A DNA stretch of 53,882 bases, taken from Syntrophorhabdaceae bacterium (GTDB lineage: Bacteria > Desulfobacterota > Syntrophorhabdia > Syntrophorhabdales > Syntrophorhabdaceae). The stretch is from the NCBI GenBank assembly GCA_035541755.1, contig DATKMQ010000003.1, positions 1 through 53,882 on the forward strand, read 5' to 3'. The translations under genes and the position numbers were made by a program. The first letter of the stretch is position 1. The number at the start of each line of letters is the position of its first letter. The notes under the pieces are model-generated. The model was given only the letters and a program-made list of their open reading frames with translations, was not told the origin of the DNA and ran no database searches. Shown piece after piece: positions 2,302 through 22,453 of the stretch.

Positions 2302-2372
2302 TCACCGGGTATGTGAATACGAGCTCCACATGCGCCCTTAAAATCATCATTGAACAAGGAACGGGTGTTACC

Positions 2373-3512: not shown

Positions 3513-3514
3513 TA

Positions 3515-4387
3515 ATGAGCATATTGATTGATGATTCAACCCGAGTGATTGTGCAGGGCATAACAGGCCGTATCGGAAGCACCCAGACGCACTGGATGCT
3601 CGACTATGGAACAAAGGTGGTCGGAGGCGTAACCCCGGGCAAAGGCGGCTCCATAGTCGAGGGGGTGCCTGTATTCGACAGCGTCATGGAGGCGGTAAAG
3701 GACACGGGGGCTAACGCGTCTGTTTTCTTCGTCCCCGCGGCCTTCGTCCTCGATGCCTTTCTCGAAACCATAGACGCCGGGATTAAGCTCATCGTCATTG
3801 TTCCCGAACATATTCCTGTAAAGGATGTGGTAAAGATGCGCAATTACGCTATTGAGAAAGGCGTATTTGCGCTGGGGCCCACGACCCCAGGAATCCTCGT
3901 GCCTGGAAAAGGAAAAATGGGCATCATGCCAGCCTCACTCTTTGCACCCGGCAGGGTGGGCATCATCTCACGAAGCGGTACCCTCTCCTATGAATTCGCC
4001 GGCATCCTCTCAGAAAACCATGTGGGTCAGAGTACCGTGGTCGGCATGGGCGCCGATCCCGTGGTCTTAAGAAACCTCGCGGACATCCTCGAGCTCTTTG
4101 AGGAAGACGAGGGCACCGACGCGGTGATCGTCGTCGGAGAAGTGGGCGGAGAGCAGGAAGAGAAAGCCGCAGGCTTCATCTCGAGAAAGATGACCAAACC
4201 GGTGGCCGCGTACATCGCCGGACGTCACTCTCCACAGGGTAAACGGATGGGCCACGCCGGGGCTATTGTGCGTGGCGCATCAGGTTCGGTCGGCGGTAAA
4301 CAAGAGGCGCTCGAGGCAGCAGGCGTGGAGGTGCTTGAAAGCCCCGTACATGTGTCTGTCTGGGCAAAAAAACACAACCTGCAATAA
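3515..4387 (+). CDS. Succinate/dicarboxylate-CoA ligase (ADP-forming), alpha subunit
   Basis: This 290-residue SucD-family protein has a CoA-binding Rossmann domain (VQGITGRIG near residue 14; YGTKVVGGVTPGKGG) followed by the ligase domain with the phosphorylated histidine in GHAGAI (about residue 247) and GASGSVGGKQ. The length is normal. It starts 3 bases after the beta subunit stop, and translational coupling is likely. The pair would activate the pathway acid or recover ATP from its CoA ester. The gene converges with an acyl-CoA dehydrogenase; 162 bases lie between them without an obvious strong terminator. Confidence 0.87.
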   Translation: MSILIDDSTRVIVQGITGRIGSTQTHWMLDYGTKVVGGVTPGKGGSIVEGVPVFDSVMEAVKDTGANASVFFVPAAFVLDAFLETIDAGIKLIVIVPEHIPVKDVVKMRNYAIEKGVFALGPTTPGILVPGKGKMGIMPASLFAPGRVGIISRSGTLSYEFAGILSENHVGQSTVVGMGADPVVLRNLADILELFEEDEGTDAVIVVGEVGGEQEEKAAGFISRKMTKPVAAYIAGRHSPQGKRMGHAGAIVRGASGSVGGKQEALEAAGVEVLESPVHVSVWAKKHNLQ

Positions 4388-6450: not shown

Positions 6451-7725
6451 ATGATAGATTTTAACCTGCCTTACCTAAACGAGGAACAAAAAAGTCTGGC
6501 CATGCTCATGAAGGATTTCTGCACGAGGGAAGTTGACCTCAAAACCTTGAATGAGATCGCAGATCAGACAATCCCGGCAAATGCCACGAGCGCGGACCTG
6601 AGGGCCCGCATGCCATGGGATTTAGTTGCCAAAGCACATGATGCGGGACTGAGGCAAATAACGGCCCCGGCCGAATACGGCGGCGGAGGCTACGAAGAAG
6701 ATCATCTCGCCCAGGGTGCCATGGCCGAGATGGCCGGGTATATGGGCGGCCAGTTCGGCAGACTCATGACTATAACGTGGAAACAGCTCGCCGCTTTCGC
6801 ATACGCGCCCAAAGACATCGCAAAAGAGGTGCTGGACGATTTCATGAAAGACAAGAAGACCATGATGGGAGCTTCCATCACTGAGCCGAACAGCGGGAGT
6901 GATTTCCTCATGCCCTATGACGAGCCAGGAGCAACAGGCCAGTATTTGGCGCGTAAAGAGAAAGACGAATGGGTCTTTAACGGGGACAAGATGTTCTGTA
7001 CCGCCGGAGGTGTTTCTAATTATCTCACGGTCATGGCACGGACAGATCCCAAAGGTCCCATCACCAAATCCGTGACTCAGTTCGTCATCGACACACGCCT
7101 GCCGGGGTGGTCGGTCGCCCGCGTAAATGATATGATGGGCAACGAACTCGTGACAAACGTGCAGATGCATTTCGAGAATTACAGGATCCCCGACAGATAC
7201 CGGGTGAGCCCGGTGAATGGAGCCTTTGATGTCATGAAGTCGCGCCTCGCCGGCAAATCCCTCCACATGTTTGCCGTCCTCGGATGGGCTGAGAGGACAT
7301 GGGAAGACATGAAAGAATACGCCATGGCGAGAATTCAGGGCGGCAAGCCGATTATTCAACACAGCAACGTTGGCACACTCATATCGGAGACCGATTGCCT
7401 GTTACGGACCACAAAGCTCCTTCTGTATCAAGATGCCTGGGAGTGGCACAACGTGGGACAGGGTCAGATGAGAGATGTGCTCGGATGGTACTATATTAAC
7501 TGGTATATCAAGAAGGTGCTCATGCGCATTATCGAAGCGGGTCTCGAGGTGTACGGCGGTATGGCGCCTCAAAAAGAACTCACCTTCGAGCACTGGGTTC
7601 GTGTGCATCTCAGTATTCTGCACGGCGGATCGACTGGCCTCTTAAGCCTGGTAAAAGCAGCCAACATCATGGCAAAGGCCGGGCAACCTTCGGCTCGCGC
7701 AGCGGACGCCCTGCAGGAGTCGTAA
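6451..7725 (+). CDS. Divergent acyl-CoA dehydrogenase-family protein lacking the usual catalytic Glu
   Basis: At 424 residues it is longer than the usual 380. The fold is recognisable from ITEPNSGSDF (143-152), the flavin-contact segment FNGDKMFCTAGG, and a C-terminal helical domain. By alignment the catalytic Glu is absent at both known sites: His391 replaces the MCAD residue (LHGGST) and Ser264 replaces the helix-G residue (KSRLAG). It may use another base or carry out a different reaction. It is the first gene after the sigma54 promoter and lies directly upstream of etfBA, so electron transfer to ETF is likely. The start is supported by AAAGGGAGG. The substrate is unknown. Confidence 0.8.
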   Translation: MIDFNLPYLNEEQKSLAMLMKDFCTREVDLKTLNEIADQTIPANATSADLRARMPWDLVAKAHDAGLRQITAPAEYGGGGYEEDHLAQGAMAEMAGYMGGQFGRLMTITWKQLAAFAYAPKDIAKEVLDDFMKDKKTMMGASITEPNSGSDFLMPYDEPGATGQYLARKEKDEWVFNGDKMFCTAGGVSNYLTVMARTDPKGPITKSVTQFVIDTRLPGWSVARVNDMMGNELVTNVQMHFENYRIPDRYRVSPVNGAFDVMKSRLAGKSLHMFAVLGWAERTWEDMKEYAMARIQGGKPIIQHSNVGTLISETDCLLRTTKLLLYQDAWEWHNVGQGQMRDVLGWYYINWYIKKVLMRIIEAGLEVYGGMAPQKELTFEHWVRVHLSILHGGSTGLLSLVKAANIMAKAGQPSARAADALQES

Positions 7726-7824: not shown

Positions 7825-7835
7825 GGAGAATGATT

Positions 7836-8636
7836 ATGAACATTATCGTATGTGTGAAAGAGATAGCCGATCCAGAAGCCCCCGCGGATTCCTTCAGGCT
7901 CGACCCTGAAAACAAGGTGCTCGCGACCTCGCCCAAGGTCCTGAGGGTCATCAATCCTTTCGATGAACAGGCTGTCGAAGCCGCCCTCAGGATAAAAGAC
8001 GCGGTTGGTGCCAGGGTTACGACCCTTGCCCTCGGTAAAGGCCTTGATCGAGTGGTCGTGAAGAAACCGCTCTTCATGGGCGCGGACGAACTCATCCTTC
8101 TCGAGGACGATGCCTTTGCAGGAGGAGACAGCTGGTCGACGGTCCTCGCTCTCTCCTCAGCCATCAAGAAGATCGGGAGCTACGATCTTATCCTGTGTGG
8201 CAGACAGGCCGCAGACTGGAACGCGGGCCAGGTCGGTTCCGGCATAGCGGAGATGTTGAAGCTTCCGAGCGTGACGGTGGCTAGAAAGATTGAGATAGTG
8301 GACAAAAAGGCCAGGGTGGAAAGGGTGACCGCCGATGGCTACGAGGTTGTCGAAGTCAGCCTGCCAGCCGTGATCACCGTAAGCAATGAGATCGGTCAGG
8401 CGCGATATCCCGCAATCCAGAATATCAGAACGGCAAATAAAATACAGCCGCTTGTCTGGAAACCGTCAGACATCGGTCTTGATGCTTCAGACGTGGGCGC
8501 CAAAGGGAGAAAGCTTACAATCCTGAAACTCTTCCAACCGGTATCCGAGGGGATATGCGCGATCATGGAAGGAGAGACCCAGCAGGAAATGGCCGAAAAC
8601 CTGGCCCTAACCCTGAGAAAAGAGAAGATACTGTAA
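7836..8636 (+). CDS. etfB: Electron transfer flavoprotein, beta subunit
   Basis: This 266-residue EtfB-family protein starts MNIIVCVKEI. With EtfA it forms the soluble FAD/AMP electron carrier that accepts electrons from acyl-CoA dehydrogenases. Family features include NPFDEQAVEAALRIKD in the first third and the conserved CGRQAADWNAGQVGSGIAE (about residues 123-141). An ATG at 7830 is also in frame, but GGAG at 7825-7828 is only one base from it and seven from the ATG at 7836, so the latter is chosen. The pair sits between an acyl-CoA dehydrogenase and an FMN/Fe-S oxidoreductase, suggesting it links the two. Whether it bifurcates electrons is not decidable by eye. Confidence 0.9.
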   Translation: MNIIVCVKEIADPEAPADSFRLDPENKVLATSPKVLRVINPFDEQAVEAALRIKDAVGARVTTLALGKGLDRVVVKKPLFMGADELILLEDDAFAGGDSWSTVLALSSAIKKIGSYDLILCGRQAADWNAGQVGSGIAEMLKLPSVTVARKIEIVDKKARVERVTADGYEVVEVSLPAVITVSNEIGQARYPAIQNIRTANKIQPLVWKPSDIGLDASDVGAKGRKLTILKLFQPVSEGICAIMEGETQQEMAENLALTLRKEKIL

Positions 8637-8655
8637 TTCAAAGGTGGTGTTCGAT

Positions 8656-9645
8656 ATGGCTGATTGCAAAGATGTCGTGATTTACGGTGAGACGAGAGAT
8701 GGAAAAATCTCTGCCATTACCAAAGAATTGCTCGGGGGGGCGCGAAAGCTGGCCGACGATCTGGGTGAGGCGCTCATCGTCATGTTCATCGGCGGCGGGA
8801 TAACGGAGGCTGCCCGTGAAGCCATGTCCTTAGGCGCAGACAGGGTCTATGTAGTAGACCACCCGGAACTCGCGTTCTACCGGACGGAACTCTATATGTC
8901 GGCAGCGTCAACCATTATAGAAAAGCAAAACCCGCGTTTTCTCATTTTCGGCCACACTGATGTGGGCGCTGATCTTGGCCCTCGCCTCGCATTCAACCTC
9001 AATACGACCATTGCGACAGACTGCATCGAATTGTCTGTCGAGCCTGACACAAAGTCTCTTTTACGAACAAAACCGGTGTATGGAGGTCTTGCTTTAGCCA
9101 CCTATACAAGTGAAGGCTTCCCTCAGATGGCTACAGTCAGATCGAAATCTTTGACGCCTGCCGAACATATGGAGCGAAACGGGGAATTCATATCTGTTGA
9201 TTGGAATTACGATTCATCGGCGTCGCGTATATCTGTTCTTGAAAAAGTGGTTGAGGCCGTAAGCGGCGTCAAACTTGAAGACGCCGAGGTGATCGTATCC
9301 GGCGGCAGAGGCATCGGAGATTCCGAGGGATTCAAACAACTGGAGGAAGCGGCAAGATTCCTGAAGGGCGCGCTCGGCGCCTCCCGGGTTGCCTGTGACA
9401 ACGGGTGGGTACCGACCACCATACAGGTTGGCATTACCGGCAAGATCGTAGCCCCCAGACTCTATCTTGCCGTGGGCATTTCCGGTGCAAGCCAACATAT
9501 GTCAGGCTGCTCTCGGTCCAAGACTATCATAGCCATCAACAGGGATCCGGCGGCCGCCATTTTCAAACAGGCCCAGTTCGGCGTGGTGGGCGATTGGAAA
9601 GTCGTTCTGCCCATCTTCATCGAGAAACTAAAAAGTTTAGAGTAA
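8656..9645 (+). CDS. etfA: Electron transfer flavoprotein, alpha subunit
   Basis: This 329-residue EtfA-family protein has an N-terminal alpha/beta domain and the C-terminal FAD domain with SGGRGIGD, the DNGWVP segment, [11 protein letters not shown] and [11 protein letters not shown]. In that block Ser replaces the more usual Ile of GAIQH. Two GTG codons at 8644 and 8647 are in frame, but AAGGTGG at 8641-8647 is correctly spaced from the ATG at 8656, which I take as the start. It follows etfB by 19 bases and is followed after 4 bases by the flavin oxidoreductase gene, so the three are very likely co-transcribed. Confidence 0.9.
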
Positions 9646-9649
9646 ACGG

Positions 9650-10769
9650 GATGAACCAGCTGTTCGAACGGACAGAGATAAACGGCATGAAATTGGAGAA
9701 TCGTTTCGTAAGATCGGCCACCGTTGATAACGGCGCTGAATCGGGATTCGTATCGAACAAGCAGATCCAATACTTTTCGGAACTCGCTGCGGGAGGGGTT
9801 GGTTTGATCGTAACAGGTATGACATGCGTCCATGCCGCCGATCAGATCCGGCCTGTTCAGAACTCCATAGCAGACGATAAGTACATTCCGGCGTACAAAA
9901 AACTGACCGCGTCAGTACACAGCCGTGGGGCGAAGATCGCCCTTCAACTCGTTCATTCCGGCAGGCAGAGGGGCAAATGGCTCGGGCAGGCAGACGGCTA
10001 TGCCCTGGCTCCTTCTGTAATCGAACATGATCCCTTTTTTACTGGAGCGACCTATCGGGCCGCGACCGAAGAAGAGCTTCTCGAGATCATAGTCGCTTTT
10101 GGAAATGCTGCCCGAAGAGCCAGGGAAGCCGGTTTCGACGCCGTACAAATTCACGGCGCCCACGCATTCCTCTTGAGTCAGTTTTTATCTCCACATGCGA
10201 ATCGACGAGACGATGCCTGGGGCGGCTCCCTTGAGAACCGGCTCCGCCTGCATCGTGAGATTTACAAGACGGTGAGAGGCCGCGTGGGTAACGATTATCC
10301 CGTGCTCATCAAACTCGGCGTTCAGGACGGCTTTCCATACGGTCTTGATTTCTCGGAAGGCAAGAAGGCCGCTTTAGCCCTGGCCGAGCTGGGGTTCGAC
10401 GCGCTGGAAATTAGTCAGGGACTACGAGGCGAGATCTTTGAAGGGACCGAATATCGGACAGACATAGATAGACCCGATCGAGAGGCTTATTTCCGGCGGT
10501 GGTGCGTTGAAGTCAAGACACAAGTCGCCGTGCCCGTCATGATGGTCGGTGGTTTGAGGAACCCTGTATTTATGAAAGAGATCATCGAAAAAGGCGAAGC
10601 CGATTATATCTCACTATGTCGGCCGTTTATCAGGGAACCACACATAATCAATGACTGGCAACAGGGTGATCTGCATCGCGCCCGTTGCATATCCTGTAAC
10701 AGATGTATTGAGGCATTGAACATAGGAGATTTCCTTCATTGTCCTCAGATCACATATAACAAGGGTTGA
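9650..10769 (+). CDS. Old-yellow-enzyme family FMN oxidoreductase with C-terminal Fe-S motif, no FAD domain
   Basis: This 372-residue TIM-barrel protein belongs to the NADH:flavin oxidoreductase family: NGMKLENRFVRSAT at the N-terminus, IHGAHAFLLSQFLSP with the catalytic His pair region (about residue 170), and GGSLENRLRL. It ends in a cysteine cluster C-x2-C-x2-C-x11-C (RCISCNRC...HCP). Enoate and 2,4-dienoyl-CoA reductases have C-x2-C-x3-C-x11-C and then a FAD/NAD domain; here the protein stops after the cluster. It therefore probably receives electrons from a separate carrier, with the adjacent ETF or the ferredoxin-flavodoxin at 22482 as candidates. Likely role: reduction (or oxidation) of an alpha,beta-unsaturated acid or acyl-CoA of the pathway. 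Confidence 0.82.
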
Positions 10770-10782
10770 GAGAGGAACACTC

Positions 10783-11229
10783 ATGAACGATTTCGAGACG
10801 GCAGAAGGTACTTTGGTCACCGGCGTTATAGGAGAGGACGTGCATATCATGGGGATTAGAATTGTCGAGCATGCTTTGAGACAGGCCGGTTTCCGGGTAG
10901 TTCCTCTGGGAGCGCAGGTATCTCAAGAGCAGTTCATAGAAGCGGCTATTGAAACGAATGCAGACGCCCTTCTCATTTCATCGCTCGGTGGCCACGCTTC
11001 AATTCTCGTACCCGGGCTTCGGGAGAAATGCGATGAAGCAGGGTTGAAACAAATCCTCCTCTACCTCGGGGGGCAGCTTGTCATCCGTGAATCCAGTTGG
11101 GAAGATTCGGAGAATGCGTTCAAGGAAATGGGATTCGACAGGGTCTATCCGCCGGACGTTAAGCTCTCCCAGGTCATCGCCGACCTCGAAGCCGACTGCA
11201 GGAGGAAAAGGAGTGCCCGTGGACTTTAG
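10783..11229 (+). CDS. B12-binding small subunit of a glutamate-mutase-like enzyme (S/GlmS type)
   Basis: This 148-residue Rossmann-like cobalamin-binding protein resembles methylaspartate mutase subunit S (137 residues in Clostridium). The base-off/His-on signature is complete: D19-x-H21-x2-G24 (H21 would ligate cobalt), SSL near residue 62, and GG in YLGGQLVI. Together with an E subunit it forms the adenosylcobalamin-dependent carbon-skeleton mutase. A clear ribosome-binding site precedes it (GAGAGGAAC). Its last 11 bases overlap the GTG start of the E1 gene, so the two are translationally coupled. The organisation S-E1-L-E2 differs from the usual S-L-E. No methylaspartase gene is present nearby, arguing against ordinary glutamate fermentation. 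Confidence 0.88.
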   Translation: MNDFETAEGTLVTGVIGEDVHIMGIRIVEHALRQAGFRVVPLGAQVSQEQFIEAAIETNADALLISSLGGHASILVPGLREKCDEAGLKQILLYLGGQLVIRESSWEDSENAFKEMGFDRVYPPDVKLSQVIADLEADCRRKRSARGL

Positions 11230-12667
11230 AAATAAACGGATGACCGAAAAAGAGTTTATGCGGATGAGACAGGAAGTGCTTGCCACCTGGCCTGCCGCTT
11301 CAAACGTGGACCTGGATGAGGCTGTGGCGTTTCATAAGAGCCTTCCTTCGCACAAGAATTTCGCTCTGACATTGTTGGAGGCACGGAAGAATAGAAGGAC
11401 CCTCATCCGCTCCGAATCCGGAGTTCCTGATCTGGAGGAGTTCACCAGGTATCTGCTCTTTCTCCAAAATGAAGGAGAGATCGATCTCCTGGGAACCATG
11501 GTAGACAGCATGACACGAAATCAAAAGTACAGGGACGCCGAATTGGGCCTGAAAAAAAGTCTTGAAACGGGAAGATGGGTCATCAATGGATTCCCTATGG
11601 TCGCATATCGCATAACGGATATACGGAGGATAATAGAAAGCGTTGACCGCCCCGTCATGATTCGGGGTATCTCGCCCGATTACAGACTGATTGACGAGAT
11701 CGGGTTTGCGGGAGGACATACCGGTACTTCTGGCAACCCGCTCAATGCGTTCTGTCAATATTCGAGTTCGATGCCTTTGGAGACGGTGATCACGAATTTT
11801 CAGTATGTCTACAGGCTTATGGGTCACTATGCTGACCGAGGAGTTCCCTTAACCGCGTCTGTGGCAGGAGGCTTCGCCATACTATGTCCTTTCAGCGTTC
11901 TCATAGCAGGGGCCATCGTCGACTCCTTAATCGCAGCAGAACAGGGCGTGGTGAATATTAGTCTTGCGGTGAATACTCAGGGAAATCTCGTTCAGGACGT
12001 CGCGGCCATGATCACGGCTCGCAAGATGCTCGAGCTTTATCTTAACGCCAATGGGTACCATGATGTCCAGGTGACCCTCAACTGCACCAATTGGTCGGGA
12101 AGATTTCCCGAAGACATATTCGCCGCCTGCAGTATCATCGCGCTGGGCGTTATTGCCGCCATAGCGAGTAACAGCGAGATCGCCACGGTCAAAACGATCG
12201 AAGAAGCAAAAAGCATACCTAAGAAGGAAGCCAATGCGGCAAGCGTCAGGCTTGCAAAGACATTGATCACCATGTCTCGGGGCCAGGTCCTGAAGCTCAA
12301 CGAAAAGGAGGTTAAAGAAGAAGCGGCCATCCTTGAGACGGAAACACGATTAATTGTCGACAAAATCATCGATATGGGCAATGGCGACGTGGTGAAGGGC
12401 GAAATCAAGGCGATCGAGTCAGGCGCTTTCGATGTTCCTTTTTCCACGAGCCGGTTCGTTCCGTGCAGGGTCAAGGGCATCAGGGATGCGCAGGGTATGG
12501 TGCGGTATTTCGATCATGGAAACCTCCCCCTGAGCAGGGAACTGGTGGCTTTCCACAAAGAGAAGGTGGCGGAAAGGCAAGGGGCCGCAGGAAACGCCCT
12601 CGATTACCAGACAATTGCCGATGACCTCTCGGCGATCAGCAAGGGGTTGCTTAGAGGCGATGCGTAG
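11219..12667 (+). CDS. Glutamate-mutase-like catalytic subunit, first copy (E1)
   Basis: At 482 residues it matches Clostridium GlmE (483) without gaps through the first 200 positions. The GTG at 11219 is chosen because VDFRNKRMT aligns with the GlmE start MELKNKKWT and AGGAG lies at 11208-11212. Compared with GlmE active-site numbering (recalled), Arg100 (TR), Arg149 (IRG) and Tyr181 are kept, as are Lys326 and Glu330 (K325 and E329 here), which contact adenosylcobalamin. Arg66 is Glu66 (with an Arg at 64), Glu171, which holds the substrate amino group, is Ser171, and Tyr177 is Ala177. It looks like an active radical B12 mutase E subunit whose substrate is not glutamate, perhaps a diacid without an amino group. 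A second copy follows MutL. Confidence 0.88.
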   Translation: MDFRNKRMTEKEFMRMRQEVLATWPAASNVDLDEAVAFHKSLPSHKNFALTLLEARKNRRTLIRSESGVPDLEEFTRYLLFLQNEGEIDLLGTMVDSMTRNQKYRDAELGLKKSLETGRWVINGFPMVAYRITDIRRIIESVDRPVMIRGISPDYRLIDEIGFAGGHTGTSGNPLNAFCQYSSSMPLETVITNFQYVYRLMGHYADRGVPLTASVAGGFAILCPFSVLIAGAIVDSLIAAEQGVVNISLAVNTQGNLVQDVAAMITARKMLELYLNANGYHDVQVTLNCTNWSGRFPEDIFAACSIIALGVIAAIASNSEIATVKTIEEAKSIPKKEANAASVRLAKTLITMSRGQVLKLNEKEVKEEAAILETETRLIVDKIIDMGNGDVVKGEIKAIESGAFDVPFSTSRFVPCRVKGIRDAQGMVRYFDHGNLPLSRELVAFHKEKVAERQGAAGNALDYQTIADDLSAISKGLLRGDA

Positions 12668-12696
12668 GGAATTCGTATTATCCGGGGAAGGCTATA

Positions 12697-14115
12697 GTGT
12701 CTGAAGTTGGTATATTCGTAGATTTCGGCAGCACCTTTACCAAGGTCGTGGCCATGGACATCGATCACGAAGAGGTTATAGGCGCGGGCAAATCGCCCAG
12801 TACGGTCAAGACGGATATTACCGTCGGCCTGAGCCATGCGCTTGACCAGTTGCAACTTCCAGACGGCCAGACCGCTAAAGGATCGAATATCAGATTGGCC
12901 TGCAGTAGCGCGGCCGGTGGTTTGCGTCTCGTTGTCATCGGGCTTGTTCCGAGCCTCTCGATGAACGCAGGAAGACTGTCGGCATTGGGAGCCGGAGCCA
13001 AACTCATTGGCGCTTATTCCTACAAGTTGAACCAATCGGAGATTAATGATATAGAGCGATTGTCGCCAGACATCGTACTCCTCGTCGGTGGCACGGACGG
13101 GGGCAATGAAGAAGTGATCATCCACAACGCGAAGGTTTTGGCCTCATCAAACCTGGATACTCCTGTGGTCGTCGCTGGTAATAAAAGTTGTGCCGACCAC
13201 GTCAAAAGGCTATTGGAATCGGGCTCGAGGCACGTGGCTGTCGTAGACAACGTCCTGGGAGAACTCGACAAACTGAATGTGGAACCGAGCAGACGGGCTA
13301 TCAGGGAAATCTTCATGGAGAGGATAATCCGGGCGAAAGGTTTGGATAAGGCGAACCATTTTATTGACGGGATCATCATGCCAACGCCCATGGCTGTGCT
13401 CAAGGCCGCTGAGCTGATGTCCCAGGGCCACGGCGATGAAGAAGGGCTGGGTGAACTCATGGTCGTGGACATCGGCGGAGCTACAACCGACATTCACTCC
13501 GTGGCCAAGGGAGACCCAAAGAACCATGAAGTTATGAAAAGAGGCATACCGGAGCCGTTCGCGAAGAGGACGGTTGAAGGCGATCTGGGAATCAGGTATA
13601 ACGCACTGTCAATTCTGGAGGACGCGGGATTAGAACACGTCGCCTCGAGTATTTGCTACCGCGGATCGTCGGCAGAACTCGAAAGAAGGATTAGGTACCT
13701 CACCGAGCATACCGAATACGTGCCAAGCGATGAGCCCGATCGCCTGCTCGACGCGGGGCTGGCTCGGGCGGCAACGGAGATAGCTGTAGAGAGGCATGCA
13801 GGACGGTTGGAAGAGGTCTATTCTCCTCACGGAGCCATGTACGTTCAGCTCGGCAAGGACCTGACTGAAGTCAAGCATGTCATCGGCACCGGAGGCATCT
13901 TCGCCTATGGACAAAATGCGTTTCCCATACTCGAAGGCGCCCTTTTCTCCGCACAGCGTCCATTTTCTTTGAAACCGAAGTCTCCCGATTTTCTGATTGA
14001 CAGGAGCTATATCCTTTTTGCCGTGGGGCTACTTGGTGAGCAGGCGCCACGGGCAGCGCTGAGGATAGGGAAGAAATACCTCAACAAACAGCTTGTATAT
14101 GGTGCTTTTGGGTGA
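12697..14115 (+). CDS. MutL/GlmL-type chaperone or reactivase of the B12 mutase
   Basis: This 472-residue ASKHA-fold ATPase of the glutamate mutase L family begins near VDFGSTFTKVV (phosphate loop 1) and has VDIGGATTDIHS (about residue 257) and GTGGIFAYG. Such proteins are encoded between or beside mutase subunits and are thought to assist assembly or reactivation of the B12 enzyme. Length is typical (about 460). It starts with GTG at 12697 behind GGGGAAG. It separates the two E-subunit genes, with a 29-base gap before it and 19 bases after it to the ATG of E2. Confidence 0.88.
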   Translation: MSEVGIFVDFGSTFTKVVAMDIDHEEVIGAGKSPSTVKTDITVGLSHALDQLQLPDGQTAKGSNIRLACSSAAGGLRLVVIGLVPSLSMNAGRLSALGAGAKLIGAYSYKLNQSEINDIERLSPDIVLLVGGTDGGNEEVIIHNAKVLASSNLDTPVVVAGNKSCADHVKRLLESGSRHVAVVDNVLGELDKLNVEPSRRAIREIFMERIIRAKGLDKANHFIDGIIMPTPMAVLKAAELMSQGHGDEEGLGELMVVDIGGATTDIHSVAKGDPKNHEVMKRGIPEPFAKRTVEGDLGIRYNALSILEDAGLEHVASSICYRGSSAELERRIRYLTEHTEYVPSDEPDRLLDAGLARAATEIAVERHAGRLEEVYSPHGAMYVQLGKDLTEVKHVIGTGGIFAYGQNAFPILEGALFSAQRPFSLKPKSPDFLIDRSYILFAVGLLGEQAPRAALRIGKKYLNKQLVYGAFG

Positions 14116-14134
14116 GCAGAAGAGGCCGGTTGGG

Positions 14135-15562
14135 ATGATACGTAACCGAAAGATGGGAGATGAATTCTGGGCGGAGAGAAAAGAAGTACTCGCCGAGTGG
14201 CCGACCGGCAAAGAGGTGGACCTTGACGAGGCGGTGGCATACCACAAATCCATGCCGCCTGAGAAGGTATGGTCAACGCGTCTTACTCGAGCAAGGCAGA
14301 ACGGTGAAACGCTTCTTATCACCGGCATGGGCCACACAACCATAGAGCAGCAGATCAAGCTGCTTCAGACAGTGGAACCGGTTGCCGATATTCTCGGAAC
14401 ATCACCCGACAGTCTGACGCGGGCTCATCATTTCCATGTCATCCAAAAAGAAATAGAAAGATCGCTCCAATTAGGGATCTCTACCCTCAACGGGTTTCCC
14501 ATTGTCAACCACGGTGTCATGGGAATACGAAAGCTTATTAATGCCATTTCCAAACCGATTCAACTCCGCTATGGCGCTCCCGATATGAGGATAATCAACG
14601 AGATAGCTTATGCTGGAGGATATACGGCCGACTCGGGCGACGGCCTCTACAATTTCTGGAACATGAATTCCAAAGAGCCTATCGAAAAGGTCCTGGCCAA
14701 TCACCAGTACCTTCACAGGCTTATCGGCATTTACGAGGAGAGAGGAGCGCCGATCAGCGCATCGGTGCTGGGTCTGTATGGATGCGGGATACCGCCAAGT
14801 CTGAACATCGCCGCCCAGCTAACACAAGTCCTCATGATGGCCGAACAGGGAGTAAAAGAGATCGTTTTTCATCACCATGCGCACGGAAACCTGGCGCAGG
14901 ATATAGCCGGCGTTCGTGCCTTCTATAAACTTGTCGGCTATTACCTCGAAACACTGGGCTACACAGGCATGAGGTTCAACACCAATGCCGGGCTCGCCCT
15001 TGCCAAGTATCCCCATGATGTGGGAGGATCTTATATGGTCGTCGCATTCAACTGTCTTCTCGCACGGCTCTGCGGCGCCCAGATAGTCGACGTACGAACC
15101 ATATCGGAAGCCAAGACCATCCCTTCTGCACAGGACATTTTTGTTACGTTCGAAGCCGGGAGAATGGCGGTTAACCTCTTCAAAAACCAGGGCGTCGCGG
15201 CGGATGAGGAGCTTGTAGCCGACGAACAGACTATGATTGAAATGGAGGTTCGATCCATTCTCGACCGCGTCTTCGATCTCGGTGACGGCGATGTGGTGAT
15301 CGGCACCCTCAAGGCCGTGGAACAGGGCGTACTCGACAATCCGTTCAGTAGCCACAACTCCGTGGCCTGTAAGGTTATGGGAATCAAAGACGACAGAGGC
15401 GCCGTAAGGTATCTCGACCACGGCAACCTGCCTTTCGGCAGGGAAATCATCGAGTTTCATAAAGAGAGGATATCCCGAAGAGAAAAACTAAGTGGACGAA
15501 AAGCAGACTATGAGACGGTAGTCGAAGATCTGTCTGCGATCGCAAGAGGAGGGCTTCTATGA
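14135..15562 (+). CDS. Glutamate-mutase-like catalytic subunit, second divergent copy (E2)
   Basis: This 475-residue protein is homologous to E1 and GlmE along its whole length. The ATG at 14135 is chosen over an upstream TTG because AGAAGAGG lies eight bases before it and the N-terminus then matches the family. Arg96 and Arg145 correspond to GlmE Arg100 and Arg149. The Arg66 position is Ile62, Glu171 is Ser167, Tyr177 is Asn173, Tyr181 is Met177, and the cofactor-contact Lys326 is Arg (in VRTISEA) while Glu330 is kept. It is more altered around the substrate and cofactor than E1. It may be the second half of an E1-E2 heterodimer sharing the one S subunit, or a separate mutase for another substrate. 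Confidence 0.87.
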   Translation: MIRNRKMGDEFWAERKEVLAEWPTGKEVDLDEAVAYHKSMPPEKVWSTRLTRARQNGETLLITGMGHTTIEQQIKLLQTVEPVADILGTSPDSLTRAHHFHVIQKEIERSLQLGISTLNGFPIVNHGVMGIRKLINAISKPIQLRYGAPDMRIINEIAYAGGYTADSGDGLYNFWNMNSKEPIEKVLANHQYLHRLIGIYEERGAPISASVLGLYGCGIPPSLNIAAQLTQVLMMAEQGVKEIVFHHHAHGNLAQDIAGVRAFYKLVGYYLETLGYTGMRFNTNAGLALAKYPHDVGGSYMVVAFNCLLARLCGAQIVDVRTISEAKTIPSAQDIFVTFEAGRMAVNLFKNQGVAADEELVADEQTMIEMEVRSILDRVFDLGDGDVVIGTLKAVEQGVLDNPFSSHNSVACKVMGIKDDRGAVRYLDHGNLPFGREIIEFHKERISRREKLSGRKADYETVVEDLSAIARGGLL

Positions 15563-15622: not shown

Positions 15623-17002
15623 ATGAGTGTTATTGCCGAGATGGTAAAAAACGTTGTAGAAACCCCTTTTGAGGCCTTCGATGCAACAATCGTTGAGAGG
15701 GCTCGAGATCGGGTCATCGATGCCCTGGGCTGTCTGATAGCAGGTTCACGGGCATCAGGTTGCTCTATGATAGGCGATCTGATACGCGAGTGGGGAGGCA
15801 AGAAAGAGAGTACGATCCTTGTACAAGGGGGCAAAGTGCCCGCTCACAATGCAGCCCTCGTAAACAGCGTCATGACGAGGTCCTATGACTTTGAACCGAC
15901 CGGTGCTTATGTGGAGGGTAAGAGTACTCCCGCCCACCTGAGCGGCACAACCGTGCCCACCGCCATTACGGTCGCGGAGCAGCACTCCGCAGATGGAAAA
16001 GAGCTCCTCACGGCCCTTATCCTCGGGGACGATCTCGCCTCGAGAATCATCGCCGCCTCAAATCTCAACATCGACTCCGGTTTTGATTGTACGGGGACCA
16101 TTAATGCGTTTGGCGCCGCGGCCATAGCCGGACGGATCGCGCGTCTGAAAGAGTACGAAATGCTTCACGCCTTTGGAATCGTGCTCAACCAGTTTGCCGG
16201 TTCATTTCAAAATATCTTTGACGGAGTACATTCCTTCAAACTGCCGCAGGGGCTTTCCGCACAGGCAGGGATATTTTCAACCGCCCTTGCCGCAAAGGGG
16301 TTCACAGGGATTCGGGACCCTCTGCTCAGCAAGTACGGATACTTTTCCCTCTATTGCAAAAGTTACCAGCTTGAAGTACTCACACGCCGCCTGGGGGAGG
16401 AATTCTATGCAGACTACACCTGCAAACCCTATCCCTGCTGCCGCTCGAATCACGCGGCTATTGACTGCGTCCTGGAATTGAATAAGACAAACCACATTGA
16501 TCCGGATGATATTGATGAAATCGTCGTGGATATCACGCCCACAGCTCATGATTTTGCCGTGGGCCAGCCTTTCAAGATCAGAGATGTCCCCCAGATCGAT
16601 GCCGCGTTCAACCTCCAGTATACCGTGGCTAACGCGCTGCTGAGAAAGGACGTAAAACTGGAGCACTTTGCTGAAGAGCTCGTCCGGGACCCGAGCATCG
16701 CCGATCTTATCAACAAAATAAGACTCACCGCCACAATTCCTTCAAGCAAGCCCCTTGGGGCAAAGGTCATAATACGAATGAAGCAGGGGATCGAATTGAT
16801 CAGGGAGGTCGATATGCCGAGAGGCAACGGCATACTTACACCTCTTGCCTCCGCTGAAATACGAAAGAAATTTCTTGATAACGTCGCCTTCTCCGGGACG
16901 ATTTCTCTGGAAAATGGAGAAAAAGTACTCAGTCTGCTCGAAAGATTGGAGGAAGTCAACGACGTCAATGAGATAATCAGTCTACTGGTGCCCCGACAAT
17001 GA
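15623..17002 (+). CDS. MmgE/PrpD family protein (2-methylcitrate dehydratase / cis-aconitate decarboxylase superfamily)
   Basis: This 459-residue protein of normal family length starts at ATG 15623 behind GGAGGG. Visible family features are the N-terminal helical domain with RARDRVIDALGCLIAG (about 26-41), the RSYDFEPTG segment, HLSGTTVPTAI (about 109-119), and the KPYPCCRSNHA motif (about 272-282) before the C-terminal lid domain. Known members dehydrate 2-methylcitrate, decarboxylate cis-aconitate to itaconate, or isomerise/epimerise related polycarboxylates. In this cluster it likely hydrates, dehydrates or decarboxylates a di- or tricarboxylate near the B12 mutase step. It follows E2 after 60 bases. 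Confidence 0.85.
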   Translation: MSVIAEMVKNVVETPFEAFDATIVERARDRVIDALGCLIAGSRASGCSMIGDLIREWGGKKESTILVQGGKVPAHNAALVNSVMTRSYDFEPTGAYVEGKSTPAHLSGTTVPTAITVAEQHSADGKELLTALILGDDLASRIIAASNLNIDSGFDCTGTINAFGAAAIAGRIARLKEYEMLHAFGIVLNQFAGSFQNIFDGVHSFKLPQGLSAQAGIFSTALAAKGFTGIRDPLLSKYGYFSLYCKSYQLEVLTRRLGEEFYADYTCKPYPCCRSNHAAIDCVLELNKTNHIDPDDIDEIVVDITPTAHDFAVGQPFKIRDVPQIDAAFNLQYTVANALLRKDVKLEHFAEELVRDPSIADLINKIRLTATIPSSKPLGAKVIIRMKQGIELIREVDMPRGNGILTPLASAEIRKKFLDNVAFSGTISLENGEKVLSLLERLEEVNDVNEIISLLVPRQ

Positions 17003-17093: not shown

Positions 17094-18254
17094 ATGGATT
17101 TCAAACTCACTTATGAACAAGAGGCCATCCAAAAAGCCGCGCAGGAGTTCGCCAAGGGCGAGTTCGACAGGGACCTTGCCCTCGAACACGAAAAGACCCA
17201 CACGTTTCCCTATGAAATATGGAGGAAGGCCTGCGAACTCGGTTTTGTGGGCATTCACTACCCCGAAGAATATGGAGGCCAGGGTTACGGCGTGCTGGAA
17301 AACGCTCTCGTGACGGAGGCCTTTTGCCGACAAGATTCCGGGCTGGGCATGGCCTTGAGCGCAGCCGACTCATCAGCAGAGATGATTCTCCGCCACGGCA
17401 CCAAAGAACAGAAGGAAAAATACTTAACCGCCGTGGCCCAGGGTAGTGCCCTGTCAAGCGGCGCCTTCACCGAGCCGGACCACGGCAGTGACATTACTTG
17501 TCTCAGCACAACGGCTGTGAAAAATGGCGAAGAGTTCATCTTAAACGGCACAAAGACCTTCATCACAAACGGACCGGTTAGTGCCTTCGTTATCGTTCTC
17601 TGTCAAACAGACCCCGACGCGAAGCCCACTTACCGGGGCCAGTCGGCCGTTATCGTCGATCAGGGCACACAGGGGTTCACTGCCTCTGACATCGGGGAGA
17701 AAATGGGCAACAGGATGGTCCCGACCGGAGAGCTTTCTTTCAACGAGGTGAGAGTCCCTAAATCGAGCCTCCTGGGGCAAGAAAACAGAGGCTTCTATCA
17801 GGCAATGGAACTCTTCGAAGAGATGCGGATTGAGGTAGCGGCTCAATCTTTAGGAATAGCTGAGGGGGCTTTCGACCGGGCGTTGACCCATATGAAGGAG
17901 AGAAAACAATTCGGCAGAAGACTCGAGGAATTTCAGACTATTCAGCACAAACTGGCCGATATGGTGATCAAGATAGAAACGGCGAGGCTCGTTGTCTATC
18001 GTGCCGCATGGAATCTCGATCAGGGGATAGTCGATCCCAAACTCACCTCCGTGGCCAAGGCGTATGCAAGTCGCGCGGCCGTTGAAGTAGCCGACGAAGC
18101 GATCCAGATCCACGGAGGATACGGCTACATGCTGGAATACGAAGTCGAGAGGTTCTATCGGGACGCACGGTTGGCGGGAATCTACGGCGGAACGAACGAA
18201 ATCCAAAAGAATATTATTGCAAATTCGCTGCTTAAGAGATTCAACAGGGGTTAA
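17094..18254 (+). CDS. Acyl-CoA dehydrogenase (third copy, non-canonical base)
   Basis: This 386-residue acyl-CoA dehydrogenase has FTEPDHGSD (125-133), LNGTKTFITNG, RKQFGRRLEEFQ, IHGGYGY and YGGTNEIQ. Gly365 replaces the MCAD catalytic Glu and Met244 occupies the helix-G site of isovaleryl-CoA dehydrogenase, although Glu242 and Glu243 are adjacent. Asp81 (CRQDSG) might act as the base, as an Asp in this region has been proposed for the cyclohexanecarboxyl-CoA dehydrogenases of syntrophs; that comparison is from memory. The gene follows the PrpD-family gene after 91 bases and precedes the transporter genes. It presumably feeds the EtfAB encoded upstream. Confidence 0.87.
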   Translation: MDFKLTYEQEAIQKAAQEFAKGEFDRDLALEHEKTHTFPYEIWRKACELGFVGIHYPEEYGGQGYGVLENALVTEAFCRQDSGLGMALSAADSSAEMILRHGTKEQKEKYLTAVAQGSALSSGAFTEPDHGSDITCLSTTAVKNGEEFILNGTKTFITNGPVSAFVIVLCQTDPDAKPTYRGQSAVIVDQGTQGFTASDIGEKMGNRMVPTGELSFNEVRVPKSSLLGQENRGFYQAMELFEEMRIEVAAQSLGIAEGAFDRALTHMKERKQFGRRLEEFQTIQHKLADMVIKIETARLVVYRAAWNLDQGIVDPKLTSVAKAYASRAAVEVADEAIQIHGGYGYMLEYEVERFYRDARLAGIYGGTNEIQKNIIANSLLKRFNRG

Positions 18255-18301: not shown

Positions 18302-18772
18302 GTGAAGAAGGAAAATCTCATTGTTACGTGCTTTTGGCTAGCACTGGGCGTTTTTGTCGTATCCTATTCCTACAGATTGGGTCTTGGGCAAATCCACACT
18401 CCGGGCCCAGGGCTATTCCCCTTTGCCGTTGGGGGCCTCTTTATACTGCTTTCTTTGTTTAAGCTTTTGGTCGCATTGGTCAAGAAAGTTAAGGATGATG
18501 AGGAGCAAAAGACAGGCGTGTCGGCACTTAACGTGGGCAAACTATGCCTGGTTGTAGCTTCCCTTTTCGCTTACGGCATACTTTTAGAGCCGCTCGGTTA
18601 TATTATCACCACCTTCTTCATTATGGCCGTCCTGTTCTTTGCATCGGGCTATAAGAGCTGGTCTAAAGCACTCGGCTACTCGGCCATCGTAGTCGTCGCA
18701 ACTTATTTCATGTTCACGTATCTCGGTACGCGGTTTCCCCCTGGCGTTCTCCGGTATTTTGGTATGTATTGA
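18302..18772 (+). CDS. tctB: Tripartite tricarboxylate transporter, small membrane subunit TctB
   Basis: This 156-residue protein has four predicted membrane segments (about 8-25, 38-58, 78-98 and 105-145), a typical size and layout for TctB. It starts with GTG at 18302 behind GGGAGG. Together with TctA (next gene) and a TctC binding protein it forms a secondary transporter for tri- or dicarboxylates and other acids. The tctA start lies 19 bases downstream of its stop. Confidence 0.85.
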   Translation: MKKENLIVTCFWLALGVFVVSYSYRLGLGQIHTPGPGLFPFAVGGLFILLSLFKLLVALVKKVKDDEEQKTGVSALNVGKLCLVVASLFAYGILLEPLGYIITTFFIMAVLFFASGYKSWSKALGYSAIVVVATYFMFTYLGTRFPPGVLRYFGMY

Positions 18773-18791
18773 TCTTTCCCGAGGAGGAAGA

Positions 18792-20306
18792 ATGGACATA
18801 TTCGGCGGTCTGCTTTCCGGTTTTCATAACGTGTTTCAGCCTCAAGTGCTGTTCTACTGCTTCGTGGGTGTATTCATAGGGACCCTTGTGGGCGTGCTTC
18901 CAGGCATCGGCCCGGTTGGCGCCATGTCGATTCTTCTGCCTTCGACCTTTGGCCTGCCCCCGGCCACCTCCATCATTATGCTTGCCGGTATTTATTACGG
19001 AGCACAGTACGGCGGCTCAACAACCTCTATCCTCGTAAACATTCCTGGAGAGGCTTCTTCGGTCGTCACCTGCATCGACGGGTACCAAATGGCCAAGCGA
19101 GGCCGAGCCGGTCCAGCCCTCGGCATATCTGCTTTCGGATCCTTTATCGGGGGAACGTTCAGTATTATCGCGCTTATGTTCCTCGTTTATCCTCTCGCCG
19201 GTGTGGCCGTTAAATTTGGCCCCCCCGAGTTCTTTGCCCTGATGTGTCTTGCCATGACCGTCCTCACCTATCTGACAAGCGGATCGGTCATCAATGCGGT
19301 TTTTATGGTACTTCTCGGGCTGATCCTCGGCGTCGTAGGTATGGACCCTATTTCCGGCATGCCCCGTTTTGTCTTTGGGTGTACGACCCTTCTTGACGGG
19401 GTGGGCATGGTGCCCGTGGTGATGGGCCTGTTCGGCATCGCTGAAGTGCTCACCAACCTCGACGAATCCCAGGGAAAAGTCATGTTCCAAACCAGAGTAA
19501 AAGACCTCTTCCCGAATCTGCAAGACTGGAAGAGGTCTATCGGTCCTATATGGCGAGCGTCGGTCATGGGTTTCTTTCTTGGCATTCTCCCCGGTGGCGG
19601 CGCAGCCATGTCTACCTTTCTCTCCTATACAACAGAGAAGAGACTTTCCAAGCACCCCGAGGAGTTCGGTCATGGCGCTATCGAAGGTGTTGCAGGACCT
19701 GAAACGGCGAACAATGCCGCGGCAGGCGGGGCCTTCGTGCCGCTACTTGCCCTGGGAATTCCTCCAACGGCGATCATGGCGCTTCTCTTGGGGGCGCTCG
19801 TGATTCACGGCGTGACCCCTGGGCCTCTGCTTCTTTCCCAGCATCCCGAGATATTCTGGGGTGTCGTTGCCAGCATGTACATAGGAAACGTTATGTTGCT
19901 CGGGCTCAATCTTCCTCTTATCGGTATGTGGGTGAAGGTGTTGAAGATACCTTACAGGCTCCTCATGCCACTCATCCTTTTGTGCTGTCTGATCGGCTCA
20001 TATGCGGAAAATGAGAGCGGTATGAGCATTGTCATCATGGTCATTTTCGGCGTTGTCGGCTATATATTACGAAAATTTCACTTCGAATCGGCCCCTCTGA
20101 TTTTAGCGTTCATCCTGGGACCTATTATGGAGACGAATTTCCGTAATTCTTTGATCATGTCCGATGGGAGTTTCGCTATTTTCGTCACAAAACCCATTTC
20201 GCTCATACTGCTCATCATCTCAGCGCTTCTGTTCATGTCCACGGGCTTCTCGACGTATCGCAAGACGAAAACTAAGGTCATAGACGAATCTGAGAGTGAG
20301 GGATAG
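18792..20306 (+). CDS. tctA: Tripartite tricarboxylate transporter, large permease subunit TctA
   Basis: This 504-residue polytopic membrane protein has the two family signatures: GVLPGIGPVGAMS near residue 35 and GILPGGGAAMSTFLSYTTEK near residue 262, each probably lining the transport path. The ATG at 18792 is chosen because GAGGAGG lies at 18780-18786; an upstream in-frame codon would overlap tctB. The order TctB-TctA-TctC-TctC is typical apart from the doubled binding protein. Substrate specificity lies mainly with the periplasmic subunits and cannot be assigned, but the neighbours suggest an organic polycarboxylate. Confidence 0.92.
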   Translation: MDIFGGLLSGFHNVFQPQVLFYCFVGVFIGTLVGVLPGIGPVGAMSILLPSTFGLPPATSIIMLAGIYYGAQYGGSTTSILVNIPGEASSVVTCIDGYQMAKRGRAGPALGISAFGSFIGGTFSIIALMFLVYPLAGVAVKFGPPEFFALMCLAMTVLTYLTSGSVINAVFMVLLGLILGVVGMDPISGMPRFVFGCTTLLDGVGMVPVVMGLFGIAEVLTNLDESQGKVMFQTRVKDLFPNLQDWKRSIGPIWRASVMGFFLGILPGGGAAMSTFLSYTTEKRLSKHPEEFGHGAIEGVAGPETANNAAAGGAFVPLLALGIPPTAIMALLLGALVIHGVTPGPLLLSQHPEIFWGVVASMYIGNVMLLGLNLPLIGMWVKVLKIPYRLLMPLILLCCLIGSYAENESGMSIVIMVIFGVVGYILRKFHFESAPLILAFILGPIMETNFRNSLIMSDGSFAIFVTKPISLILLIISALLFMSTGFSTYRKTKTKVIDESESEG

Positions 20307-20382
20307 ATAGGGTATACCATTAGAAAAAAAGTTATAATCAACGTAGGCAATGTAACCAAAGAAAACCATAAGGGAGGTAACC

Positions 20383-21366
20383 ATGAGAAAAAAATCCTTG
20401 ATCGGCCTTGTACTCGTTGTAGCGTTTGCTCTCTGCCTCGGCCTAGATATGGCCAAACCAGTCTGGGCTCAACAAAAATTTCCATCTCGACCCATAACAA
20501 TCTTCGTCACCTTTGCGCCCGGCGGTATCTCCGACATCACCGCGCGCATCTGGGCGCGATTCATGGAGAAATATCTCCCTGGAGCCACAGTGGTGGTTGA
20601 CCATAAACCCGGTGGTGGAGGCGTCGTGGGTTACACCTTTGTTGCCAACGCCCGGCCCGATGGGTACACGCTTTTGAATTCCGGCGACTTCTTCACTCCT
20701 ATTCTGGAAGGAACAGCCACTTACAAAGTCGAGGATCTGGCTGTCATTGCTCAGGTTGCTCTCAACGGATGCGTCTTGGCCGTAGGTCCAGACGCGCCAT
20801 GGAAGACCTTCCAGGAATTTGTGGATTACGCAAAGAAGAATCCTGGCGCTAAGTGGGCGCATCAGGGGGTCGGCACCTCGGTCTATTTCAGAACGCAGAA
20901 CCTCAATAAACAGGCCGGATTGAAATTGATCGGCGTACCCATGAAAGGAGATTCGGAGATCATTTCGGCCCTTCTCGGAAAACACGTGGCCATAGGCAGT
21001 CTAAGTGCGGGCATGGCAAAAGCCCAGGCAGACGCCGGTAAACTGCGGATCCTTTTCAGCTTCGACCAGGCCAAGGGGTTCGGACTCGATCCTTCTCTCC
21101 CGTATATGGCCACAATGTTCCCTAATGCTCCGGATATTGAGGTCGGACTCTATCTCGTAGCCCCCAAGAACACCCCCAAGGACGTTATGGACATTTTAGA
21201 GAAGACCCTGGAAAAGATGACGAAAGATCCGGAGTTTATTTCCGAAACCATGAGAATCAATCAGATGGTGAGCTTTGTTCCCGGCAAGGTCGTTATGGAA
21301 CAAAGGATACCCAAGAAGATGGAACTTGTACGGTCCATTATGAAGGAGGAAGGCCTCATTAAATAG
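20383..21366 (+). CDS. tctC: TctC-type periplasmic solute-binding protein (first copy)
   Basis: This 327-residue Bug/TctC family protein has a Sec signal peptide (MRKKS, hydrophobic core, WAQQ cleavage region near residue 31). It carries the family features ARIWARFMEKYLPGATVVVDHKPGGGG and ANARPDGYTLLNSG. It delivers the acid to TctAB. GGGAGG lies before the ATG. A TATAAT at 20333-20338 in the 76-base gap after tctA might provide a separate promoter that raises binding-protein levels, but its -35 is poor. Confidence 0.9.
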   Translation: MRKKSLIGLVLVVAFALCLGLDMAKPVWAQQKFPSRPITIFVTFAPGGISDITARIWARFMEKYLPGATVVVDHKPGGGGVVGYTFVANARPDGYTLLNSGDFFTPILEGTATYKVEDLAVIAQVALNGCVLAVGPDAPWKTFQEFVDYAKKNPGAKWAHQGVGTSVYFRTQNLNKQAGLKLIGVPMKGDSEIISALLGKHVAIGSLSAGMAKAQADAGKLRILFSFDQAKGFGLDPSLPYMATMFPNAPDIEVGLYLVAPKNTPKDVMDILEKTLEKMTKDPEFISETMRINQMVSFVPGKVVMEQRIPKKMELVRSIMKEEGLIK

Positions 21367-21490
21367 GGCCACGCCATGTTCCGCTACAGGAGGCCGATAC
21401 TTATGTGCCGCCGCTAATGCCTGTTCTCGAACGCGCAGCGCATGCTATGACTCGCACGGGTCTTACCCATGGTATGGAGGAATTGAGACT

Positions 21491-22453
21491 ATGATAAAGA
21501 AGATGATCTTCGGTATTCTGATTTTGGTGCTCATGGCTGGCCTGCTTTGCGGGAGCCTACGGGCGCAACAGAAATATCCTGCCCATCAGATTGAGATCCT
21601 TTGCGGTTTTGCACCGGGGACCGGTCCTGACATCCTCAATCGTATCCTCGCTCATCACCTCGAAAAACAGCTCGGCGTCACCGTTGTGCCCGTGAACAAG
21701 ACCGGAGGTGGTGGTGTGGTGGCGATCACCACAGAAGCCACCGCCCGCCCGGACGGTTACACCATTCTCAATACAGGGGACTATATCATCCCTGTGCTTA
21801 CCGGGCAGGCCGGTTACGCTATCGAAGATTTGCGCGTCGCCGCCCAAGTCGCCCTGAACGGGACGGTTCTCATCGTCCCGGCCGATTCTCCCTGGAGGAC
21901 CTTTCAGGATTTTATGGACTACGCTAAGAAAAACCCTGGGATCAAATACTGTCATCCGGGGGTTGGGACCATGGCTGCTATGAGAATGGAAAACATGAAC
22001 AGACAGGGCGGGCTTAAACTCATAGGTGTCCCCGTTCAGGAGGTGGTTGCCTCGGTCCTGGGAAAACATGTGCCTATCGGCCTCACCAGCAATGCCACGG
22101 CAAAACCTCTGGTGGAAGCAGGAAAAATTAGGATCCTTTTCAGTTTTGACCCGGCCAAAGATTTCGGGCTCGATCCTTCAATCCCGGACTTCACAAAGGT
22201 CTTTGGCAAGGACGTGCCTGACATCGAAGTGGCTACCTACCTGGCTGTTCAGGCAAAAACTCCTCCGGAAATCGTCACGGTTCTCGAGAGGGCAATAGAA
22301 AATATCTCGAAAGATCCGGAATTTGTCAATGAACTTATGAGGAACAATTTCAGGGCGAGTTTCGCCCCCGGCAAGGTGGTCATGGAACAAAAGATTCCCA
22401 AGAAACTCACTCTCATAAAGGCTATCTTGCAGACCGCCGCGCCTGCTAAATAG
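21491..22453 (+). CDS. tctC: TctC-type periplasmic solute-binding protein (second copy)
   Basis: This 320-residue paralogue of the gene before it has a signal peptide (MIKKM, hydrophobic core, RAQQ near residue 28) and the same landmarks, KTGGGG and ATARPDGYTILNTG. The two proteins share long stretches (for example VVMEQ-IPKK near the C-terminus) and probably arose by duplication. With only one TctAB pair here, the second binding protein may widen the substrate range. AGGAATT precedes the ATG. The 124-base gap before it shows no gene. Confidence 0.9.
   Translation: MIKKMIFGILILVLMAGLLCGSLRAQQKYPAHQIEILCGFAPGTGPDILNRILAHHLEKQLGVTVVPVNKTGGGGVVAITTEATARPDGYTILNTGDYIIPVLTGQAGYAIEDLRVAAQVALNGTVLIVPADSPWRTFQDFMDYAKKNPGIKYCHPGVGTMAAMRMENMNRQGGLKLIGVPVQEVVASVLGKHVPIGLTSNATAKPLVEAGKIRILFSFDPAKDFGLDPSIPDFTKVFGKDVPDIEVATYLAVQAKTPPEIVTVLERAIENISKDPEFVNELMRNNFRASFAPGKVVMEQKIPKKLTLIKAILQTAAPAK

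Follow-up and report, generated by a model that had tools for sequence, protein, structure and literature searches.

Two divergent GlmE-like subunits encoded with one B12-binding subunit in a Syntrophorhabdaceae genome are very probably not glutamate mutases

What reaction is served by a glutamate-mutase-like gene cluster that carries two different catalytic subunits and no methylaspartase? The question is raised by a stretch of 53,882 nucleotides (the window), which is contig C3 of a Syntrophorhabdaceae draft genome (3.85 Mb, 95.8% complete). Four real genes at positions 10783-15562, arranged head to tail and either overlapping or 19-29 bases apart, encode a B12-binding subunit (S), a GlmE-like catalytic subunit (E1), a MutL protein (L) and a second GlmE-like subunit (E2). 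They belong to an operon that begins with an acyl-CoA dehydrogenase/electron transfer flavoprotein (ETF) set and continues after E2 with an MmgE/PrpD gene and a TctABC transporter. Because Arg66, Glu171 and Tyr177 (GlmE numbering) are lost and the residue set tracks methylaspartase linkage, the sequences indicate that the system is very probably not a glutamate mutase. We propose, with a probability of roughly 0.6, that S+E1 and S+E2, with S and L in common, are adenosylcobalamin (AdoCbl)-dependent mutases that rearrange the skeleton of a free dicarboxylate bearing no alpha-amino group.

The family assignment was clear. Gene calls and NCBIfam and Pfam matches agreed with the first-pass annotation of this DNA, which had described one B12-binding subunit, one MutL and two E subunits. 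S and L exceeded the curated NCBIfam cut-offs for methylaspartate mutase S and GlmL, and against TIGR01503 (cut-off 390 bits) E1 scored above the threshold with 424 bits and E2 just below it with 387.7. Near full length and with few gaps, which bears out the essentially gapless alignment claimed earlier, E1 and E2 showed 37% (E ~1e-102) and 38% (E ~1e-100) identity to GlmE of Clostridium cochlearium (1cb7). Their AlphaFold (AF2) models had mean predicted local distance difference test (pLDDT) scores of 92.7 and 94.0 and matched 1cb7 with template modelling (TM) scores of 0.98 at 1.2 A and 0.96 at 1.7 A, respectively. The window system thus resembles the glutamate mutase (methylaspartate mutase, EC 5.4.99.1) GlmES/MutES of C. 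cochlearium (1cb7, 1ccw, 6h9e) in fold, in its separate S and E genes, in the linked MutL, and in keeping Arg100, Arg149, Glu330 and the S motif. However, it differs in the low identity of its E subunits, in the replacement of R66, E171, Y177 and H150, and in having two E genes with MmgE/PrpD and acyl-CoA dehydrogenase/ETF genes instead of methylaspartase.

In the GlmE structure, the glycyl moiety is bound through its carboxylate by R66 and R149 and through its amine by E171, and the acrylate moiety by R100 and Y177 (PMC9545868), in agreement with the earlier statement that Glu171 binds the substrate amino group. E1 has the signature E66/R100/R149/G150/S171/A177/Y181/K326 and E2 the signature G66/R100/R149/Y150/S171/N177/M181/R326. 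The arginine claw R66/R100/R149 is therefore incomplete in both subunits, with R66 gone and R100 and R149 kept. H150 has become Gly in E1 and Tyr in E2, H291 Thr and Gly, and M294 Ser and Leu, while Y181 is Tyr in E1 and Met in E2. E330 and R100 are retained in both subunits and in all 13 members of the E1/E2 clade, and R326 of E2 is also present in the C167 group. The alignment confirmed most of what the first-pass annotation had said of the pocket, namely that both E subunits keep Arg100 and Arg149, that Glu171 is Ser in both, that Tyr177 is Ala in E1 and Asn in E2, and that E2 has Arg for Lys326, which E1 keeps as Lys. Its replacement of Arg66 also stood, with Glu in E1, but E2 has Gly there and not the reported Ile, which is at position 64. 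A Tyr at position 177 of E2, seen in a HMMER alignment with a local gap, was rejected, since the multiple alignment is gapless there and N177 occurs in 3/3 E2 orthologues.

The same pockets were found in orthologues. Loci L044 and L045 carry matching signatures; in E1, position 66 is Glu or Asp and position 177 Ala or Ser. By comparison, 36 GlmE (35 methylaspartase-linked sequences and 1cb7) that go down to 50% mutual identity show no variation at the five substrate-contact positions. Since the signatures recur in L044 and L045 while the contact positions are invariant in these GlmE, the residue changes are not due to chance. E1 keeps 59% and E2 52% of the 130 positions that are strictly invariant in the 36 GlmE.

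To place the two subunits in their family, E subunits and their neighbourhoods were gathered from 70 named loci (genome contigs), from plasmids and from relatives of the window's genome. A scan of the contig collection with E1 alone found no relative, and the 70 loci came from an alignment-based scan. Because the collection scan used two short patterns, the numbers of orthologues are minimum values. Masked bases occur in some of the loci; they cut into the E-like starts of L111 and L112, which were excluded. R66, R100, R149, E171 and Y177 were all present in 35/35 E subunits with a methylaspartase gene nearby, and the full set was found in 0/48 without one, so that intact residues matched methylaspartase linkage in 83/83 cases. 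As these sequences are related by descent, the Fisher value for the split should not be read as a probability. The methylaspartase-linked E subunits included in a maximum-likelihood tree formed one clade (support 100/100), and the remaining E genes fell into several groups, each with its own conserved pocket.

As the first-pass annotation had noted for the neighbourhood, no methylaspartase was found within the window, nor was a convincing one found in the genome, where the best PF07476 (MAAL_C) match, an enolase-superfamily protein, was rejected as a methylaspartase at 20% identity. The genome contains six E genes at five loci, none of the six with the full glutamate set, and the annotation "methylaspartate mutase" is probably wrong for all of them. 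It also has four GlmS-type B12 genes adjoining E genes and two complete MutL genes, and E genes are missing altogether from most of its nearest relatives. Altered pockets are more widespread than the earlier annotation supposed, extending to the four other E subunits of the genome and to many elsewhere that lack the full set. In open-access papers, we found nothing relevant on divergent glutamate mutases.

A genome search for loci with two linked E genes yielded orthologous loci in two further genomes, whose E1 orthologues have 65% and 50-51% identity to that of the window. L044 (Deltaproteobacteria bacterium bin73, CP070673.1) has the order ACAD_a-EtfB-EtfA-S-E1-L-E2-MmgE/PrpD, with all eight genes syntenic at 63-78% identity, and L045 (Zod_Metabat.1361) has the order E1-S-E2. 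The three E1 subunits form one clade (support 100/98), and E2 falls in a clade of eight (support 100/100) with the E2-type subunits of C152, L046, L047, L048 and L049, five loci in which the E2-type subunit has its own S and no E1. Given this placement, E1 did not arise by a recent duplication of E2. A single E2-type locus is present as well in each of the three genomes that have a two-E locus. Nonsynonymous divergence (dN) from L044 was 0.25 for E1, 0.23 for E2, 0.25 for L and 0.26 for MmgE/PrpD, so that E1 and E2 are constrained like the other two; dN/dS against L044 was not computable, as dS is saturated. Two further candidates were discarded. L106 has E pieces of 245 and 296 residues in a stretch with masked bases. 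L150 (G420:C38:1-5160), from a genome of the same family, has the order E-S-E-S-L with each E followed by its own S; its two E subunits, 84% alike, are closest to those of the C167 type, and we regard it as a recent duplication and not the window's system.

From what the sequences show, namely the gene content, the predicted fold and residue losses that are conserved and go with the absence of methylaspartase, we infer an AdoCbl radical chemistry, a substrate class, a pathway order and a subunit composition. S, E1, L and E2 would form an AdoCbl-dependent carbon-skeleton mutase of GlmES-family descent with a substrate other than glutamate. B12 would be held between S (DxHxxG) and the E TIM (triosephosphate isomerase) barrel and give rise to a 5'-deoxyadenosyl radical, as in glutamate mutase, and L would reactivate the mutase. 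Arg100 and Arg149 may each bind one carboxylate of a diacid, and their retention is compatible with such a substrate, while the loss of the amino-group site (Glu171) and its neighbours suggests that the substrate has no alpha-amino group. The substrate would most likely be a free C5-C7 dicarboxylate, either unsaturated (2-methyleneglutarate/3-methylitaconate type) or hydroxylated, whose linear and branched forms would be interconverted. Fragmentation-recombination requires a group that stabilises the migrating radical, and an unsaturated acid (e.g., 2-methyleneglutarate) or a hydroxy acid is for this reason likelier than plain glutarate. The diacid may be imported by TctABC, and the MmgE/PrpD protein and the acyl-CoA dehydrogenase/ETF set may act before or after the mutase.

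E1 and E2 would most likely be two catalytic subunits of different specificity on one shared S. As a sub-case of our proposal, they could rearrange related acids in two reactions, successive or alternative, by swapping on S, to which we give slightly less than even odds. The pockets differ at 66, 150, 177, 181, 291, 294 and 326 in a clade-specific manner that is mostly conserved in orthologues, although sequence alone cannot tell this arrangement from an obligate heterodimer (E1E2S2), in which the two would have a single composite specificity or one of them would be regulatory. Such a heterodimer, raised as a possibility by the first-pass annotation, would fit the single S gene for two E genes and the finding that 3/3 E1-clade members adjoin an E2-type gene. 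It is possible but not favoured, and rather unlikely in our view, because S occurs with an E2-type subunit and without E1 in the five loci named above, and because E1 and E2 both keep R100, R149 and E330 and evolve equally slowly, neither resembling a dead partner.

The earlier claim that amino-acid recognition has been lost is supported by the missing residues (R66, E171, Y177) and the 83/83 linkage, but several points count against the proposed substrate class and call for caution. E1 has gained a conserved Arg64, two residues from the lost Arg66, which could be a displaced carboxylate anchor, and the acidic side chain at 66 offers a possible binding site for a cation and thereby for a differently placed amine. 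Furthermore, the MmgE/PrpD protein names no specific acid, because its active-site segment departs from solved cis-aconitate decarboxylases, and the genes come from draft genomes. The proximity of Arg64 to position 66, together with database models that name S, L and E1 methylaspartate mutase, would suit a glutamate mutase with compensating residues that feeds a methylaspartase-free pathway. We consider this highly improbable in view of the five positions invariant among the 36 GlmE despite their divergence, the genome without a convincing methylaspartase, and the lack of any obvious substitute for Glu171 and Tyr177 conserved in both E1 and E2. A mutase for another amino acid or amine, whose cation would be bound by acidic residue 66 of E1 instead of Glu171, is improbable as well, if less so: Glu or Asp66 is found in 3/3 E1 and C143 has Asp66, whereas E2 has Gly at this position and the neighbouring MmgE/PrpD, acyl-CoA dehydrogenase/ETF and TctABC genes suggest organic acids.

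Table 1. Genes of the window in and around the S-E1-L-E2 operon
Feature	Coordinates	Strand	Evidence and remarks
Succinate-CoA-ligase-like beta and alpha subunits	2313..4387	+	Profile matches; possibly same pathway as mutase
Further acyl-CoA dehydrogenase	4550-5698	minus	
ACAD_a, divergent acyl-CoA dehydrogenase, first gene of operon	6451..7725	+	Pfam Acyl-CoA_dh domains; 78% identity, syntenic in L044
ETF beta (EtfB)	7830..8636	+	Profile match; 71% identity in L044
ETF alpha (EtfA)	8644..9645	+	Profile match; 66% identity in L044
Short OYE-family oxidoreductase, start approximate	9630..10769	+	Profile match; no counterpart in L044
S, B12-binding sigma subunit	10783..11229	+	DVHIMG, fitting DxHxxG; NF002612/TIGR01501 above cut-off; S tree
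E1, GlmE-like catalytic subunit	11219..12667 (GTG start ~11219)	+	PF06368 E=7e-126
L, MutL/GlmL, probable reactivase	12697..14115	+	NF040745 607 bits vs cut-off 475
E2, GlmE-like catalytic subunit	14135..15562	+	PF06368 E=8e-112
MmgE/PrpD-family protein, probable downstream hydratase, dehydratase, decarboxylase or epimerase	15623..17002	+	PF03972, PF19305
ACAD_b, acyl-CoA dehydrogenase	17094..18254	+	Profile match
TctB, TctA, two TctC: tripartite tricarboxylate transporter, probable uptake system	18302..22453	+	

The neighbouring genes (Table 1) recur with related E subunits. An MmgE/PrpD gene adjoins E genes of the E1/E2 clade in the window, L044 (63% identity to the window's protein), L049 (53%, a fragment) and beside C143 (42%), and more distant MmgE/PrpD subfamilies adjoin the E genes of the C167 group and of a betaproteobacterial group. 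The nearest solved structures to the window's protein are a B. subtilis protein labelled IRG1, IDS-epimerase and cis-aconitate decarboxylase. The window's protein has Cys in place of the His of these solved relatives in an aligned active-site segment, a site that we take to be catalytic, and the Lys segment is shifted. E2-type loci are also accompanied by an AprA-like flavoprotein of the fumarate reductase type (C152, and upstream in L044) and by a small AprB-like ferredoxin (C152, L049, L044). These partner genes suggest redox and hydration chemistry on free acids.

In L025 (11164-13791), L044 (1-1888) and L049 (223-1007), AprB-like ferredoxin genes, joined by AprA-like flavoprotein genes in L025 and L044, adjoin or precede the S-E2-type genes. 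L044 differs from the window in lacking the short OYE gene and in having an ATP-binding cassette (ABC) transporter downstream, where the window has TctABC. Within the window, TctC was assigned by Pfam and TctB and TctA by size, order and sequence; the second TctC has 53% identity to the first. A FAD_binding_2 flavoprotein with a possible signal peptide lies at 26821-28332, its best match being vinyl phenol reductase at 361 bits, below the cut-off of 600.

Other E systems were observed along the way. A second conserved cluster in L022 (3935-15523), L068 and L083 combines two or three CaiB-type CoA transferases, a crotonase, MmgE/PrpD, S and an E that keeps R66/R100/R149 and has Ser or Ala at 171; L022 and L083 also have a type I CoA transferase. 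In L069, L081, L085, L090 and L040, a GlmE-like domain is naturally fused to a C-terminal B12-binding S domain, giving proteins of 639-644 aa in which Pro171 and Trp177 replace Glu and Tyr; L081 and L040 encode identical proteins. E subunits with L149/S150/L171 and no methylaspartase nearby (L092, L094-L096, L098-L102, L109, L036-L038) come from Alpha- and Gammaproteobacteria and the window's phylum, and several adjoin succinate-CoA-ligase-like genes. L056 and L058 (Acetomicrobium, Syntrophobacterales) have a distinct K149/N171/F177 pocket without methylaspartase.

2-Methyleneglutarate mutase, from nicotinate fermentation in Eubacterium barkeri, catalyses the AdoCbl-dependent rearrangement of a non-amino dicarboxylate, which would be the same kind of chemistry if our proposal holds. 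A PrpF-like methylitaconate isomerase is a typical partner in that pathway; the window's genome differs in having no PF04303 match. The methylmalonyl-CoA mutase (MCM) family, including 2-hydroxyisobutyryl-CoA mutase and IcmF, shares the TIM barrel and B12 in a remote fold match (TMq ~0.5), but has CoA ester substrates, another domain order and ~12% identity to the window's E subunits.

Free acids are the substrates of few known AdoCbl skeleton rearrangements, and annotation gives the whole E subunit family one function. E subunits divide cleanly into those linked to methylaspartase and the rest, a division that supplies a simple check of residues (R66/R149/E171/Y177) for spotting misannotation and directs attention to several B12 reactions that lack an assignment. 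Tentatively, the window would encode a two-catalytic-subunit AdoCbl mutase that acts on a non-amino dicarboxylate through an as yet undescribed reaction, and would belong to one of eight or more GlmE-like sequence groups that have altered pockets and no methylaspartase. If this is true, an entire set of B12 skeleton mutases would be going unrecognised under the annotation glutamate mutase, and since several of the loci carry pathway genes, their reactions would be directly testable.

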